Source: Bacillota bacterium
GTDB lineage: Bacteria; Bacillota; Sulfobacillia; JAJYWN01; JAJZPE01
NCBI GenBank assembly: GCA_021787335.1
Contig: JAJYMC010000065.1
Span: 122,414 to 186,413, forward strand
Direction: 5' to 3'
DNA length: 64,000 nucleotides
Shown here: positions 53,009 through 60,708 of the stretch, piece by piece
Numbering within the stretch: position 1 is the stretch's first letter
Layout: each line of letters starts with the position of its first letter
Made by a program: the position numbers and the translations under genes
The notes under the pieces: generated by a model
Database searches by the model: none
Seen by the model: the letters and a program-made list of their open reading frames with translations, nothing else
Told to the model about the DNA's origin: nothing

Positions 53009-53678
53009 AGGGTCCTCTCGGCGGCCAGCCGTAAGAAGGGGAGGGGTGCCCTACAAGCACTAGCGTCCGCCGGCGCCGGCCTCCACCATGTCGCGTGGTC
53101 GCCGAATCGCCACGTCTCCATGCCCGGTTCTCCAACGGATGAGGTCGCGACCCGAGGAGACGAAAAAACCAACGACGTAGGCCCAGTCGCACGGTCAAGG
53201 CACCCGGCAGGCAGAAGACCCGCGATTGTTGAGGAGAAGCAGGCCCCGTCCGCACCCGCGCGAATGGGGCCTGCTTCTCTGTGCGACCGACCTCGCCCTC
53301 CAGAAACAACGTCCGATAATATAGGTTATGTAGTGTAAGAGGCGGGAGAGCCCGATGTTGCCGTCGGTCCGGGCTTTGCGGGCCTCCCCCCGCACGCGGT
53401 CAGTCCGGGACCGGCAGCGATTCCGTGTCGGTGCGTCTTGACGGGCGCTCTGCTTTCTGGTCAGGCGTCGCCCAACCCCGGACCCGCCCCTGGACGTCTC
53501 TTCCGACCGGTGCGCCGCCGTCTTTCGGCCGAGTTTCGGTCATGTCCCGCCGGCGCTGCCCGAAAGCAGGTCTGGCCACCAAAACCGGGCCCCGACCGCC
53601 CGGGACCGGGTACACGGATGCCTACCGGGTCCCGAAAGGCCCTTCCTAGGGCCTCCTAGCGTGCCGTCTAGCTGCGCT
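53009..53678. other. 670-base intergenic region between convergent yqhV and the radical SAM gene
   Basis: No reading frame here has convincing codon usage, a ribosome site and family resemblance. Visible structure: a 14-bp stem with a 28-base loop, GAGAAGCAGGCCCC (53234-53247) with GGGGCCTGCTTCTC (53276-53289); a locally A+T-rich patch around 53310-53340 (ATAATATAGGTTATGTAG), which stands out in this genome; and several short G+C palindromes near 53600-53660 (for example GGCCCTTCCTAGGGCC). An unannotated small RNA or degraded gene is possible. Confidence 0.4.
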
Positions 53679-54983
53679 TTAGCACGAAGCCGCCCGGGAG
53701 GACATTTCGGTCCGCCCAGCGTGCTCCAGCGGACATCCGCCGCCACACAGGCCGACTTCGTCGCATTCCCGGCACCGGTCCGGCAGGTGGTCCCGGTTGC
53801 GCAGGGACACGGCCAGCGGGTGTCGCCACATCTTGGCGAACGAGTCGCGCCGGGCGTTGCCCAGCGACTGAAAGTATGACTGGCATGGCATGACGTTTCC
53901 GTCCGGTTCGATGGCCAACACTGTCCGTGCCGCCGTGCACGTCTTGACCCCGGCTCCGAGGTCGACCGGATGGACATCGTGGTAGCATGTGGGCGTGTAC
54001 CAGATGAAGTCAAGCTCGAGCTCGTGCGCCAGGGCGGTGGCCTGGGCCAGGATCTGGTTCAGGTCCGACGGGGCGACGCCGGCGGCGTCCCAGCCGCGGC
54101 CGGCTCGGATGATGGCGTTCAGCCCGAAACGGCTCACGCCCAGCCCCTTGAGGAAACGGATGGTGTCGAGGATGGTTCCGGCATTAGCCGCCATGATGGT
54201 CGTGTTCGTCGTCGTGTACAGCCGGGCCACGCTGTTGCGGATGCCGGCGACCGTTTGCTCCCAAGAGGCCCGGTCGCGCCCGACCATGGCCGCGTGGACC
54301 GCGGGGTCGACCGACTCCAGGGTGATCTGGACGAAGTCCAGGCCGGCCCCGGCCAGCCGCGTGACGGCCTCCGGGGTCATGAGCCGGCCGTTGGTGATCA
54401 ACCCCGTGACTGCCCCGCGGGCCTGGGCGTGCGCCACCAGGTCGGGAAGGTCCGGCCGGAGGATCGATTCCCCGCCCGTGAAGACGAGCGTCGGCACGTC
54501 AAAGGCGACGGCCCGGTCGATGATCCGGCGCCACTGGTTCGTGGTCAGCTCCTCGCCTTTCCGGGAGCCCCCGGCGTAGCAGTGTCCGCAATCATTGTTG
54601 CAGCGGTAAGTCAGGGCCAGGTCGATGCGGAACGGGGCCCGCGGCGTCTGGCTGAAAGGCTCGACCCGGGACACGCCCAGGTCCGAGAACGGGCAGGTGC
54701 CACCCCCGGCCACGGAGGTGATGGTCGACCAGACCCGGCGCCAATCGGTCAGGGCCACATCACCCTTGACCCGGAAACGTCGCCTGACCCGCGAGGTCAC
54801 CGCCGCCTCGACCGCTGGGTCGTCGCCCGAGCGCCCCCGGGCCACGGCCAAGTAGGCCCGGACGAAGGCCGCGGCCACCCGGTCGAGGTAGAGCAGGTAA
54901 TTCGCATTGACGGTCAGGACGGCTTGGCCGCCGTCCTCCGCCCTGAGATGGAGCTTCAGACCAGCGGCTCGAATGCTCTTCAT
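53679..54983 (-). CDS. Radical SAM/SPASM protein, putative peptide-modifying enzyme
   Basis: 434 residues from ATG 54983 (GAGGGGG 8 bases upstream). The first ~95 residues (VNANYLLYLDRVAAAFVRAYL ... VRRRFRVKGDVALTDWRRVW) look like a PqqD-type RiPP recognition element. The radical SAM core has YRCNNDCGHCYAGG (Cys128, Cys132, Cys135), the GGE motif FTGGESILRPDLP and GLITNGRLM. The C-terminal SPASM region holds many cysteines (PTCYHD, VKTCTAAR, GNVMPCQSYF, DRCRECDEVGLCGGGC), expected to bind one or two extra [4Fe-4S] clusters. SPASM enzymes usually modify peptides. The gene is 44 bases after the DUF2207-type gene whose product ends in a Cys-Ala tail, the obvious candidate substrate. Confidence 0.88.
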   Translation of the reverse strand: MKSIRAAGLKLHLRAEDGGQAVLTVNANYLLYLDRVAAAFVRAYLAVARGRSGDDPAVEAAVTSRVRRRFRVKGDVALTDWRRVWSTITSVAGGGTCPFSDLGVSRVEPFSQTPRAPFRIDLALTYRCNNDCGHCYAGGSRKGEELTTNQWRRIIDRAVAFDVPTLVFTGGESILRPDLPDLVAHAQARGAVTGLITNGRLMTPEAVTRLAGAGLDFVQITLESVDPAVHAAMVGRDRASWEQTVAGIRNSVARLYTTTNTTIMAANAGTILDTIRFLKGLGVSRFGLNAIIRAGRGWDAAGVAPSDLNQILAQATALAHELELDFIWYTPTCYHDVHPVDLGAGVKTCTAARTVLAIEPDGNVMPCQSYFQSLGNARRDSFAKMWRHPLAVSLRNRDHLPDRCRECDEVGLCGGGCPLEHAGRTEMSSRAASC

Positions 54984-55027
54984 CACTGCGGCCCCCTCTT
55001 GTCGTTCGTGTCTCCATGCGTGCTCGC

Positions 55028-56626
55028 TTAGGTGCAGCCGCCGCCTCCGGCGCAGGCACAGGCACACGCACAGGAGACACAGGCGCAGGCGCACGACCCG
55101 GTGGTTGAGCCGCTTGGCCCAGAGCTGGTGGGCGGTCTCCAAGCCAGCCTTTCAGCGTGGTGGAAATCGTTCGGTGCCGGCACCAGCCCTTCGCCCAGAC
55201 GCCTGTTCAGAGCCCCCCAGCCCGGCGAGAGCCAGCCGCGGGGACCGGCCGGGCCGGGTAGACCATAGGGTTCGTAAAGATCCGTCCACATCCAGTAGTC
55301 GGTCGGGAACGGGCTATCAGCCGAGGCCAGCTGGCCTTCCACCTTATCGGCCACGGCCGGGTCGAGGAAGAACCAGCCGAGGTCCTTCTCCCAAAGGGCA
55401 AGCTTGCCATGCGGGGCGGTGGCCGCCTCGAGCTCCTTCCAGGCCTCCTGGACCCGTTCCCGGTAGTACTCCTCGCTGTCCTTCCGGCAGTAGGGTCTGC
55501 TCCGCTGGACCAGACCGCGGACCAGTTTCTTGTAGGCCTTCAACAGGAGGGCCCGGTCGAGGGAGCCGTCGACCCGGTTGATGGCGGCGAGGAAGTTGTG
55601 CACGTAACCCGGGGCCTTGCCATCGGCCTCGCCGAGGACCTCCAAGGCCATTGGGCCCGCGCCCTTCACCCTGACCAGCCGCTTCTGGACCAGCCCCATG
55701 AGGATCAGCGAGAGGACCTTCTCCGGCGGCGTCCTGAGCAGGACGGCGGCCTCGACCGGGTCCAGACCCTTGAGGACCCCCACCCCGTCCATGGCGATCC
55801 GTGGCGACGAGTACTGGTCAAGCCCGAAGAGCCTGATGATCAGGTAAACGAGGACGACACCGAGTATCAGGCCGGCCTTGACGGGGGTCGAGCCCGTGAC
55901 GGCCAGGATCATCTTCCACAAGCTCGGAGCCTGGGAAGACCCGCCGGACCGGGACGGGGCGCTCGAGAGCAGGCTGGCCGGGAACCCCAGGGTTACTGCC
56001 GCCCGCTGGCCGGCCGCCAGCTTTCCGAAGTCCCAGCTGGCCACGAGCCTACCATCGGCTCTCTCGATCAGTTCGGTCCAGCTGGAACCCACGCCATAGC
56101 GCAGGCTGTCCCGGGTCGCGCCGGGCGGAGCCACGACCGAGACCGTCTCTTTGCCGACCGGGGCGCTCCACCACCCGGGATAGTAGTTCATCGTCGCGTA
56201 GGCGCTGTCCCGGGCGTCCTGGTAGATGAAATTGGTGATGGTCGCCTGCACCCTGAAGCCCCGTGACGACCCGGGCTTGATGGGGTCGAAGCCGGTCAGG
56301 ATGACGACGATCTCCCCGTCGTTCGAAGACGTCCGGAAACGGACGTCCTTCCCCTGCGAGTCGGTCACCGCCGTGACCTTGGTGTAGGCCGTCGGTAGGC
56401 CGGCCCAGATCTCTGTGCCGTTGTCTGACGACGAGGAGTTGACAGCGAAGATGAAGGTGCGATCCATCGACACTGTCCCGTCAGTCCCGACCGTCAACGT
56501 GTCAGACTGCTCAGGGACCTGGTACGAGAACGAGGCGGCGGCCGGCCCCGGCCGGCCGCTCAAGACCAGAACCAGTAACAGCAAGGCTAAGAACCAGCGA
56601 TCAAGTCGCAACCCACAAAGCCTCAT
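55028..56626 (-). CDS. DUF2207-like membrane protein with cytoplasmic Cys-Ala-rich C-terminal tail
   Basis: 532 residues from ATG 56626 (GGGGAGGT 6 bases upstream). Signal peptide (residues 9-31, ending AAASFS); external beta-rich DUF2207-type domain (about 33-225, with FNYQ-like FIYQDARDSAYATMNYYPGWW); one membrane helix near 240-262 (AGLILGVVLVYLIIRLFGL); then a cytoplasmic part with a winged-helix-like segment (LDPVEAAVLLRTPPEKVLSLILMGLVQKRLVRV, in parts). The last residues read SCACACVSCACACACAGG, then GGCT: eight cysteines, mostly alternating with Ala. Topology puts the tail in the cytoplasm with the radical SAM enzyme encoded next. Cys codons mix TGC and TGT, arguing against a recent repeat slippage. 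Function unknown. Confidence 0.85.
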   Translation of the reverse strand: MRLCGLRLDRWFLALLLLVLVLSGRPGPAAASFSYQVPEQSDTLTVGTDGTVSMDRTFIFAVNSSSSDNGTEIWAGLPTAYTKVTAVTDSQGKDVRFRTSSNDGEIVVILTGFDPIKPGSSRGFRVQATITNFIYQDARDSAYATMNYYPGWWSAPVGKETVSVVAPPGATRDSLRYGVGSSWTELIERADGRLVASWDFGKLAAGQRAAVTLGFPASLLSSAPSRSGGSSQAPSLWKMILAVTGSTPVKAGLILGVVLVYLIIRLFGLDQYSSPRIAMDGVGVLKGLDPVEAAVLLRTPPEKVLSLILMGLVQKRLVRVKGAGPMALEVLGEADGKAPGYVHNFLAAINRVDGSLDRALLLKAYKKLVRGLVQRSRPYCRKDSEEYYRERVQEAWKELEAATAPHGKLALWEKDLGWFFLDPAVADKVEGQLASADSPFPTDYWMWTDLYEPYGLPGPAGPRGWLSPGWGALNRRLGEGLVPAPNDFHHAERLAWRPPTSSGPSGSTTGSCACACVSCACACACAGGGGCT

Positions 56627-58133: not shown

Positions 58134-58409
58134 TCACCCCTCTACGTCGCCCTCTCCCCCGGCGATGGGTGAGAGGATGACCAGTTCGCCGTCGCCCTCG
58201 ACAAGCTCGTCGCGACCGACCCGCCGCCCGTTGAAGAGGGCGCCGATGGCCAGTTGCGGCCGCAGGCCGATTATCTCCATCAGGTCCCGCAGGGTGAGCG
58301 GGCCTTCGACGGTCATGTTGAAGTCGCCGGCCTCCCCGCCGGACTTCTCGTAGACCTCTTTTGGCACGTATTCCTTGAGGTGTCCCGGAACCCTGACCCT
58401 CAGCCGCAT
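58134..58409 (-). CDS. MoaD/ThiS-like sulfur-carrier protein with residues after the GG
   Basis: 91 residues from ATG 58409 (GGAGG 9 bases upstream). Beta-grasp ubiquitin-like fold: MRLRVRVPGHLKEYVP, LRDLMEIIGL, IGALFNGRRVGRDELVEGDGELVILSPIAGG. MoaD normally ends with GG, which is adenylated and thiocarboxylated; here six residues, EGDVEG, follow the GG, so maturation would need proteolysis or the protein is not a sulfur donor. Neighbouring AOR needs a molybdopterin-type cofactor, which fits a role in its synthesis. Confidence 0.82.
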   Translation of the reverse strand: MRLRVRVPGHLKEYVPKEVYEKSGGEAGDFNMTVEGPLTLRDLMEIIGLRPQLAIGALFNGRRVGRDELVEGDGELVILSPIAGGEGDVEG

Positions 58410-58422
58410 CGTCGCCCGCCTC

Positions 58423-60288
58423 CTACAGGCGTCCCAGACTGGCCAGCTCATCGGCGACCGCCCCGAGGCCGAGCCGCCGCAGGGTCGCCTCGCTGGGGCG
58501 TCCATCCTTTGTCCAGCCACGCTTGGCGTAGTATTCATCCAGCATGATGTCCAGTTTCTCGCGGGGGATGTACTTCCCCTTGGCCGGGCCGTCCGGCACC
58601 GGTTCCTCGGCGAAGCGGGCCGGCGGGTAGTCGGCTGACCGCCCGAAGCCCTTGATGTGCTTGATGTTGAAGGCCCGGGTCAGGTTCCAGACCCGCTCCG
58701 AGGCGGTCATGAGGTCCTGCCAGGTGTACTTCCACCCGGTCACGAGCGGGAAGACGTCCTCGTAGTAGTGGAGGTCGAAGCCGATCTCCACCCACTGCAG
58801 GCGGCAGACGCCCAGAAGGTCGAAGAGCGGCCTGGTGTGCTGCAGCTCGATGACCTTGTCGACCTTGCCCTCGAGGCTGTCGCGCCCGGTGGCCACGTCA
58901 TGGGTGATGGCCCACGACCGGTTGTGGTGGCCGCCGACGTCGGCGGTCATATAGGAGAGCATCATCGCCGGGGCCCAGCGCGGCTCGTAACCGCTGATCT
59001 CCAGGCCCTTGACGTGGATGGCGAAGCGCTCCGACCCACCACCAAGCTTGGCCGCGGCGGCCCTGACCCCGTCGGCCAACAGGTCGCCGAGGCCATCGCG
59101 CCGGGCGACCTTCTCGAGCAGGTAGGCCACCGAACCCGGGTCGCCGAAGCTCAGCTCCCGCCCGACCCTGGCCCGGTCGATGATCCCCCGCTCGTAGCAC
59201 TCGATGGCGAAGCCGGCCACGTTTCCGCCGGAGATGGTGTCCAGGCCGAGTTGGTCGCACAGGTGGTTCAGGTAGGCGACGTCCTCAATGTCCTTGATCC
59301 CGCAGTTGCCGCCGAGGAGGGCGATGGTCTCGTACTCAGGCCCCTCGACCCGGATGTCCTCCTTCTCCCGGCCGGAGCCGGCGAACCCCCGGGTCCGCGA
59401 GTACTTGCCGCATGGGATGGGGCAGCCGAAGCAGCCCTTGTCGGTGACCAGGATCTTCTCCTTGAGGCGCTGGCCGTTGATGCCCTTGTGCCCTTCGAAG
59501 AAGGAGCCCTGGAAGTTCCGCGTCGGGAACGCCCCGACCTCGTTAACCCAGTCGGTGACCCCGGCCGTCCCGTAGGGGGTCCACTCCTTGAAGCCGGGCT
59601 TGCTAAAGCAGGCCTGGTACATCTCCTTGCCCAGGGCCAGGACGCCCTTGGGGTCGGCCAGGGGGATGGTCTTCGTGCCGCGGACGGCGATGGCCTTGAT
59701 CCTCTTCGACCCCAGGACGGCCCCGATGCCGGTCCGCCCGGCCTGGCGGCCGAAGTCGTGGGAGACGCAGGCGAAGCGGACCAGCTTCTCACCGGCCGGC
59801 CCGATGGTCGCCACCCGGAAGTCCTCGCCCAGATCGTCGAGGAGCATCCGCTCGGCTTCGAGGGCCCCGCGCCCCCAGTACTTGGAGGCGTCGCGGACCT
59901 CCACCCGGTCGTCGTCGATAAAGATGTAGCTGGGCTTATCGGCCGCCCCGCCGATGACGACGGCGTCATAGCCGGCGTACTTGAGCTCAGAGGCGAGGTG
60001 GCCGCCCATGTTCGAGTCGCCGTAGCCGCCGGTGGCCGGAGACTTCGAAGCCAGGGTGACCTTGCCGCTACCGGGCAGGAAGACGCCGGACAGCGGCCCC
60101 GGGGCGATGACCACCAGGTTGGCCGGGGACAGCGGCTCGGTGCCCGGCTTGAGCTCATCGAAGAGGAGCTTGGCCGCGAAGCCACGACCGCCGAGGAACT
60201 TCCGGGCCATCTCTTCGGGCAGGGGCTCGGTCCGGGCGCGGCCCGTGGTGACATCGATCCTGAGGATGCTGCCGCCGTATCCGTTCAT
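58423..60288 (-). CDS. Aldehyde ferredoxin oxidoreductase (tungsten-bis-pterin family)
   Basis: 621 residues from ATG 60288; GGAGGTG lies 6 bases upstream, and the GTG at 60297 is part of that site. N-terminal pterin-binding segments (YGGSILRIDVTTGRARTEPLP, FLGGRGFAAKLLFDEL, APGPLSG) and the [4Fe-4S] cysteines CFGCPIPCGKYS plus the later LLGVCRLQW are present. AORs oxidise aldehydes to acids and reduce ferredoxin; substrate specificity cannot be read. The adjacent four-cluster ferredoxin is the likely electron acceptor and MoaD-like protein a cofactor factor. Confidence 0.94.
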   Translation of the reverse strand: MNGYGGSILRIDVTTGRARTEPLPEEMARKFLGGRGFAAKLLFDELKPGTEPLSPANLVVIAPGPLSGVFLPGSGKVTLASKSPATGGYGDSNMGGHLASELKYAGYDAVVIGGAADKPSYIFIDDDRVEVRDASKYWGRGALEAERMLLDDLGEDFRVATIGPAGEKLVRFACVSHDFGRQAGRTGIGAVLGSKRIKAIAVRGTKTIPLADPKGVLALGKEMYQACFSKPGFKEWTPYGTAGVTDWVNEVGAFPTRNFQGSFFEGHKGINGQRLKEKILVTDKGCFGCPIPCGKYSRTRGFAGSGREKEDIRVEGPEYETIALLGGNCGIKDIEDVAYLNHLCDQLGLDTISGGNVAGFAIECYERGIIDRARVGRELSFGDPGSVAYLLEKVARRDGLGDLLADGVRAAAAKLGGGSERFAIHVKGLEISGYEPRWAPAMMLSYMTADVGGHHNRSWAITHDVATGRDSLEGKVDKVIELQHTRPLFDLLGVCRLQWVEIGFDLHYYEDVFPLVTGWKYTWQDLMTASERVWNLTRAFNIKHIKGFGRSADYPPARFAEEPVPDGPAKGKYIPREKLDIMLDEYYAKRGWTKDGRPSEATLRRLGLGAVADELASLGRL

Positions 60289-60303
60289 CGTCTTCACCTC
60301 CGC

Positions 60304-60708
60304 TTACTTGGTGGCCACGACTTCGCCATCCGCGTCGACGATGGCGTTCCGCGGGCAGAGCCGGATGCATTCCCCGCACAGCTCACACTTGATCGGGGGG
60401 ATCTCGGCGGCGTGGGTGAACATCGTCTTCCCGTCGCAGATCTCCACGCACAGGCCGCAGCCGGTGCACTCCTCCCGGTCCAGGACGTAGGCCTTGCCCT
60501 TCAAGGAGATGGCCCCGGTCGGGCAGACCTCGGCGCACTTCCCGCACTGGTCGCAGACCTGGATGTGGTAACGGCCCGGGGCCGGGAACTCGCCGCGGAT
60601 GCGGATGGCCGCCTTCTTCGGGTTCTGCTCGCCCCGGTTGTGCAGGGCGCAGACCATCTCGCAGACCCGGCAACCGGAACACCGCTCCTCGACCAGCTGA
60701 AGCTTCAA
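60304..60708 (-). CDS. Ferredoxin-like protein with four 4Fe-4S motifs
   Basis: 134 residues from TTG 60708 (GGGAGGG 7 bases upstream). Four CxxCxxCxxxC motifs: CSGCRVCEMVC, CDQCGKCAEVC, CTGCGLCVEIC, CELCGECIRLC. It resembles the HycB/AorA-type electron-transfer subunits. It lies 15 bases before the AOR gene and 40 bases after the FAD oxidoreductase, so it could connect either with the cellular ferredoxin pool. Confidence 0.93.
   Translation of the reverse strand: MKLQLVEERCSGCRVCEMVCALHNRGEQNPKKAAIRIRGEFPAPGRYHIQVCDQCGKCAEVCPTGAISLKGKAYVLDREECTGCGLCVEICDGKTMFTHAAEIPPIKCELCGECIRLCPRNAIVDADGEVVATK

Follow-up and report, generated by a model that had tools for sequence, protein, structure and literature searches.

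Introduction

Small secreted peptides and cofactors are the products for which radical S-adenosylmethionine (SAM) peptide maturases are known. Among these enzymes, SkfB, SuiB, ChlB, and PqqE work with a radical SAM barrel, SPASM auxiliary clusters, and a PqqD-like domain (fused to the enzyme, or separate for PqqE), a type of domain that typically binds a peptide or protein substrate, and SPASM enzymes of this build often join the sulfur of a Cys to a carbon of another residue. The substrates of these four are short precursor peptides, whereas QhpD, also a SPASM radical SAM enzyme, introduces thioether bridges into a protein subunit, a substrate that is a protein rather than a free peptide. Here, we analyzed two adjacent genes in a 64,000-nucleotide stretch of contig JAJYMC010000065.1 from a Bacillota bacterium (assembly GCA_021787335.1; the whole stretch is called the window hereafter), one of which encodes an enzyme of the same build and the other a membrane protein that ends in a tail of alternating Cys and Ala. 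We propose that the two genes probably form an enzyme-substrate pair; in place of a short precursor peptide or, as with QhpD, a soluble enzyme subunit without a Cys-Ala tail, the proposed substrate is a membrane protein of 490–620 residues.

The published idea nearest to this pair dates from 2025, when certain TIGR04222 membrane proteins were proposed to have Cys-rich tails beside multinuclear non-heme iron-dependent oxidative (MNIO) enzymes and to be modified in place (PMC12452194). The two systems share a disordered, C-terminal Gly/Cys-rich tail on a membrane protein whose gene lies beside that of a peptide-modifying metalloenzyme (PMC12452194), but the enzyme is an MNIO there and a radical SAM enzyme here, the tail is predicted to be periplasmic there and cytoplasmic here, and the TIGR04222 tails are Gly/Ser-rich with scattered Cys in contrast to the strict Cys-Ala alternation described below. 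A second near relative is TIGR04117, a model of Cys-Xaa-Xaa-Xaa repeat targets of radical SAM enzymes. Some distant homologues of our membrane protein, such as that of locus L046, end in CHSA tails that are likewise CXXX repeats; however, the model spans 98 positions and includes no membrane protein of such size, the Cys-Ala tail repeats a CX unit instead, and the L046 tail scored 11.8 bits against a cut-off of 50. In the open-licence literature of PubMed Central, we found no paper that joins DUF2207 with radical SAM enzymes and none on the present pair, and no family model searched describes the membrane protein together with the enzyme. The pair would thus be an apparently undescribed way to alter a membrane protein chemically. 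An earlier sequence-only reading of the window had named no described system with this architecture, which holds for the pair itself and has to be softened for its surroundings, given that the TIGR04222/MNIO tails and the TIGR04117 repeat targets exist as near ideas.

Results and discussion

Selection on the Cys-Ala tail

The membrane protein in the window ends in TGSCACACVSCACACACAGGGGCT; its tail has eight Cys, seven of which stand in Cys-Ala alternation with one Val-Ser break, and then four Gly, a Cys, and a Thr. In an alignment of 27 sequences, conservation peaks in the tail, where the mean pairwise identity is 0.77; the outside domain has 0.27, the membrane helix 0.20, and the cytoplasmic domain 0.35. 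The extreme C-terminal end (GGGR or GGCT) is invariant within its clade. The last 17 codons of 23 Chloroflexota genes always encode CACACAGCACACAGGGR, with synonymous variation at each of the 17 codons, a signature of purifying selection which, read from codons, indicates that the tail is selected as protein and not kept as a DNA repeat. The DNA pattern for CACACACA occurred once in the window genome, with zero occurrences of the reversed control. Across 299 genomes of the window's own phylum, 14 were positive for the pattern; all ten of the genuine protein tails adjoin the enzyme, and the remaining matches are simple-repeat DNA in short spurious frames with no enzyme nearby. Given that the tail codons vary synonymously while the residues stay fixed, and that the matches outside the system are repeat DNA, the tail as an artefact of chance or of DNA repeats was therefore rejected.

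Pairing of tail and enzyme across phyla

Relatives were first found by scanning genome contigs with the enzyme. In the Chloroflexota loci, the gene just upstream of the enzyme encodes a homologous membrane protein, 26–27% identical to that of the window, which ends in GGCACACACACAGCACACAGGGR or a shorter form, and one genome of the same order as the window genome also has the pair, with a tail (SCACACACVSCACACACAGGGGCT) that nearly repeats the window tail. Searches with the enzyme as probe, which are capable of finding tail-less enzymes, gave matches in 12 of 249 own-phylum genomes and in 4 of 198 genomes of the phylum of the Actinomycetota record L006, and each match adjoins a tail gene unless the contig ends there. 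At approximately 40 loci, drawn from Chloroflexota, Actinomycetota, and the phylum of the window, a Cys-tail gene lies on the same strand next to each intact homologue of the enzyme that was examined, with contig ends as the exceptions; in these sequences, the pairing is obligatory. Alignment searches with the membrane protein gave matches in 21 of 301 Chloroflexota and 8 of 299 own-phylum genomes, and all complete matches of full architecture have the Cys tail and the enzyme next door. No complete tail-less homologue of the membrane protein was found among the relatives searched that could serve as an in-family negative control, and ordinary DUF2207 proteins were therefore used instead. At ordinary DUF2207 loci in the same two phyla, none of 39 complete open reading frames (ORFs), a few of which are not the DUF2207 frame itself, has at least three Cys in its last 40 residues, their ends being Gly-rich, and the enzyme was found at none of 20 such loci read over 7–13 kb. 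A partnership of the tail gene with an MNIO was ruled out by position: PF05114 had a match in 4 of 12 genomes, all on other contigs.

The sequence-only reading had taken the tail for the probable substrate of the neighboring SPASM enzyme, with a membrane protein rather than a short peptide carrying it, and had named two tests, conservation of the tail in orthologues that keep the enzyme and adjacency of the two genes in related genomes. Both came out in its favor among the relatives with the enzyme, contig ends aside, and the occurrence of the pairing in three phyla and on a second architecture (see below) reinforces the idea. The same data bear on whether the tail could instead be an unmodified strip that binds metal, such as Cu(I), with the enzyme acting elsewhere or merely sharing its regulation. 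CxC is a motif that binds soft metals, Cys residues that alternate along an extended strand share one face, and a zinc-ribbon membrane protein is encoded just upstream in Chloroflexota; nevertheless, we find such a role quite improbable, since all homologous enzymes retain the Cys-tail neighbor in three phyla and two gene orders, the tail type tracks the enzyme clade, and the two-gene loci hold no other recurrent candidate substrate.

Tail types and a second membrane protein

The tails sort into (a) (CA)3-5 G (CA)3 GGGR, in Chloroflexota and Actinomycetota; (b) (CA)n, in some cases interrupted by VS, with the end GGCT, in the window's order and other own-phylum families; (c) CHSA/CHDA repeats with the ends CVSGGAR, CVSSV, or CVSDF, in Chloroflexota and the window's own phylum; and (d) the CACVS-type tail CACVSCACACVSCACACACAGG, in the own-phylum family f89. 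When 39 enzyme sequences are placed on a tree, whose deep joins involve long branches and are not to be relied on, the tail types and degenerate paralogues need four changes, which is the minimum, whereas shuffled labels need a mean of 17; in this comparison of sequences, the tail type co-varies with the enzyme clade. The CHSA/CHDA tails are found on distant homologues (L037, L041, L046, L047, and L048) that have their own enzyme clade in two phyla.

In family f89, the two genes stand in the opposite order and the tail belongs to another membrane protein, which is without a large cytoplasmic domain and is encoded beside genes for a TPM-domain protein and a LemA protein; the tail thus follows the enzyme and not one protein architecture. 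The f89 tail lies inside a longer protein, and in two genomes the tail protein and a TPM domain share one frame. These single frames, with the TPM domain downstream of the tail, are at L078:6364-8439 and L088:6443-8284; L079 and L080 have two genes.

An internal tail is hard to reconcile with the possibility that, once the enzyme has modified the tail, a protease releases it as a small peptide natural product of ribosomal origin. Such a fate would suit an enzyme whose structural matches are of the peptide-maturase type, a flexible Gly-rich linker before the tail, and the signal peptidase-like genes near the pair in six Chloroflexota loci. We nonetheless regard it as unlikely, as no protease or exporter gene recurs across the cassettes in general, the C-terminal end GGGR or GGCT does not vary within a clade, and two f89 loci continue in frame from the tail into a TPM domain.

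Accessory genes

Most Chloroflexota loci have the gene order zinc-ribbon membrane protein, tailed protein, enzyme, cluster-less enzyme paralogue, and class I methyltransferase, and in Actinomycetota the methyltransferase alone follows the enzyme. These accessory genes are absent from the window genome and from the other loci of types (b) to (d), and the minimal unit is therefore two genes. Their presence elsewhere leads one to consider the reverse assignment of roles, in which the tail protein would assist the enzyme, whether by anchoring it to the membrane, by donating sulfur, or by carrying iron-sulfur clusters, and a third molecule would be the substrate. Cys-rich tails can carry clusters or sulfur, and the Chloroflexota cassettes do add a methyltransferase, a zinc-ribbon protein, and a radical SAM paralogue without clusters; yet the window genome, its order relative, and other own-phylum genomes have the two core genes only, no third gene is conserved across them, and domains of the PqqD type usually serve to bind a peptide or protein substrate, all of which makes this assignment very improbable.

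The paralogue, found beside the active enzyme in most Chloroflexota loci (for example, L004:10311-11435), has kept its PqqD domain and lost all of the CxxxCxxC and SPASM Cys, and is perhaps a substrate-binding partner. The class I methyltransferase (L003:13538-14254, L073:12448-13209, L081, L082, and L006) occurs only with GGGR-type tails. The zinc-ribbon protein (L003:5781-6179 and 16 other Chloroflexota loci) is a small membrane protein with two CxxC motifs at its end and a near-constant terminal EEPKW, and is encoded directly upstream of the tailed gene. A signal peptidase I-like gene lies a few genes downstream of the cassette at L003:14300-14938 and in five other Chloroflexota loci (cluster c9), a position that may be simple synteny among close relatives.

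The enzyme

The enzyme matches the Pfam models PF04055 (radical SAM) and PF13186 (SPASM, 44 bits), and its CX12GX4C motif at residue 349 and CX2CX5CX3C motif at residue 404 conform to the SPASM patterns CX9-15GX4C and CX2CX5CX3C. Together with the CNNDCGHC cluster motif, they bear out the radical SAM protein with a SPASM-type Cys region that had been recognized from the sequence. All of 24 enzyme sequences compared also share a further Cys, C97, in the segment that links the recognition domain to the barrel. In the relatives L002, L003, and L004, the region orthologous to the recognition domain matches Pfam PqqD (PF05402) above the curated cut-off. The best structural matches are SkfB and SuiB, which are maturases of ribosomally synthesized and post-translationally modified peptides (RiPPs), over approximately 400–450 alignment columns, followed by PqqE and ChlB further down. 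By its CxxxCxxC motif, SPASM motifs, and PqqD-like domain, the enzyme fits a radical SAM/SPASM peptide maturase with a RiPP recognition element (RRE), a prediction alongside which its genetic linkage to the tail gene is seen directly. NCBIfam equivalogs were all far below their cut-offs (best 25 of 79 matches), which places the enzyme outside every named maturase family among the matches listed, and the SCIFF maturase model is absent from those best 25.

Proposed modification of the tail

Under the model that we favor, the membrane protein would be exported by means of its signal peptide and anchored by one helix, with its C-terminal part remaining in the cytoplasm, where the enzyme would bind this part through the PqqD-like recognition domain and, using three iron-sulfur cluster sites, would modify the Cys-Ala tail in place with no peptide released. 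Some action of the enzyme on the tail is very likely; that the two genes are an enzyme and its substrate, with modification in place, we hold with good confidence, and that the thiols of the tail are the target appears reasonably likely. The chemistry is less certain. Thioether or other C–S bonds, perhaps laddered across the G/VS turn between two Cys-Ala arms, are a plausible product that we put forward with considerable reserve. Since the (CA)n tail offers only Ala and Cys as acceptors, bonds from Cys to the alpha-carbon of Ala or C–S bonds between Cys are the expected outcome, and these might pair up over the G or VS interruption that separates the two arms; epimerization or other C–H chemistry of the tail is possible. 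More tentative still is the notion of a new class of in-place modification, in which a dedicated enzyme would turn a cytoplasmic (CA)n or (CHSA)n tail into a multiply C–S cross-linked strip or ladder and would share the work with the cluster-less paralogue (Chloroflexota) and the methyltransferase (Chloroflexota and Actinomycetota). As a weak guess, the modified tail might be a metal- or redox-responsive, or a stiffened, cytoplasmic interaction element of a protein from the DUF2207/TPM/LemA world.

Several points count against this model. The (CA)n tail is without the usual thioether acceptors, such as Thr, Phe, Asp, and Glu, which leaves Ala and the other Cys; a tail that served the enzyme as an iron-sulfur or metal partner, without being its substrate, would equally be adjacent to it and co-vary with it; Pfam PqqD has no match in the window enzyme, in which the domain rests on the structural model and on the relatives; and the same-genus and same-family genomes examined (G001 and G002) are without the pair, which is therefore dispensable. 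Given those two genomes, the distribution of the pair is patchy.

At this locus, a radical SAM peptide maturase is tied to a full-length membrane protein; the tail concerned is under extreme selection and occurs in several phyla and on two different membrane proteins. Modification in place would carry RiPP-type chemistry over to cytoplasmic ends that stay permanently on membrane proteins, and the pair would offer a testable way into the poorly understood DUF2207/TPM/LemA proteins and the role of their low-complexity tails.

The membrane protein

The features of both genes are collected in Table 1. An AlphaFold model of the membrane protein, built on 27 relatives, puts the membrane helix at residues 248–266 (about 248–268 when hydropathy is considered as well) and the helical cytoplasmic domain at about 290–433 and leaves the C-terminal tail disordered, and the cytoplasmic domain holds the invariant residues E292 and Y388. 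In a fold search, clear matches were obtained for the outside domain only and none for the cytoplasmic domain; by fold, the outside domain is akin to the lumenal domain of Ost1/ribophorin I that lies next to the membrane (Z 18.3, root-mean-square deviation 2.5, 181 residues). The likeness to Ost1 extends to the layout, in which the outside domain is followed by one membrane helix and then a cytoplasmic helical part. The net charge of the 15 residues after the helix exceeds that of the 15 before it in 21 of 27 relatives (mean +3.0 versus 0.0), with the window protein itself among the less clear cases; from the charge after the helix in most relatives, the tail is predicted to be cytoplasmic, in the same compartment as the enzyme.

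Table 1 Features of the gene pair, with positions in the window
Feature	Position	Strand	Evidence
Membrane-protein gene, 532 aa, single-pass, tailed; proposed substrate	55028..56626	-	ORF; homologues in three phyla; AlphaFold model
Signal peptide, residues ~1-31	56534..56626	-	hydrophobic helix 5-23, then small-residue stretch (AlphaFold model, hydropathy)
Outside all-beta domain, residues ~31-218	55973..56536	-	AlphaFold model, fold search
Membrane helix, residues ~248-270	55817..55885	-	AlphaFold model, hydropathy; positive charge after helix in most relatives
Cytoplasmic domain, residues ~280-440, winged-helix-like start, then helices	55307..55789	-	alignment, AlphaFold model
C-terminal tail CACACVSCACACACAGGGGCT, residues 512-532; proposed modification site	55031..55093	-	sequence, conservation
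Intergenic gap, 44 bases, with ribosome-binding site AAGAGGGGG at 54992-55000	54984..55027	-	sequence
Enzyme gene, RRE-radical SAM-SPASM, 434 aa; proposed tail maturase	53679..54983	-	Pfam, motifs, model, structural matches
N-terminal PqqD-like recognition domain, residues 8-92	54708..54962	-	beta-sheet and three helices in model; Pfam in relatives
CNNDCGHC radical SAM cluster motif, residues 128-135	54579..54602	-	three Cys invariant in 24 sequences
SPASM auxiliary-cluster region, residues 349-417	53733..53939	-	PF13186; CX12GX4C and CX2CX5CX3C

The signal peptide, single membrane helix, long cytoplasmic part, and eight-Cys, mostly Cys-Ala tail that the sequence-only reading had described were recovered from the AlphaFold model, hydropathy, the positive-inside test, and the sequence, as were the two genes with their order, strand, and gap from the ORFs. 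Its label of DUF2207-like did not survive: the window protein has no match to Pfam DUF2207 (PF09972) at E <= 1, and a search of the genome did not find it either, by which membership was ruled out. The distant relative L041 alone clears the DUF2207 gathering cut-off (25.4 versus 24.4 bits). DUF2207/TPM/LemA proteins do resemble the tailed protein in having an outside domain, a membrane helix, a cytoplasmic part, and a Gly-rich end, and TPM and LemA genes are carried by the f89 loci, but ordinary DUF2207 proteins have tails without Cys and loci without the enzyme. TIGR04222 gave no match with the window protein and only weak similarity in the relatives L013, L037, and L041 (16–23 bits against a cut-off of 43). 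On the tests made, the present system should not be classed as DUF2207 or TIGR04222, and a ranthipeptide label, which stands for a non-alpha-carbon thioether on a precursor peptide, would be premature.

Genomic surroundings of the pair

The enzyme gene starts with the ATG at 54983, just 3' of its good ribosome-binding site, and ends at 53679. A terminator-like stem lies 3' of it at 53588-53607, although such stems occurred at about chance frequency in the promoter and terminator scan. A reading of the locus as a defense system was rejected, the PADLOC matches reflecting only generic radical SAM (viperin) and methyltransferase similarity. Upstream of the pair, at 58134-60708, an aldehyde ferredoxin oxidoreductase-like gene stands with ferredoxin-like and MoaD/ThiS-like genes in a group that resembles an ordinary tungsten enzyme operon.

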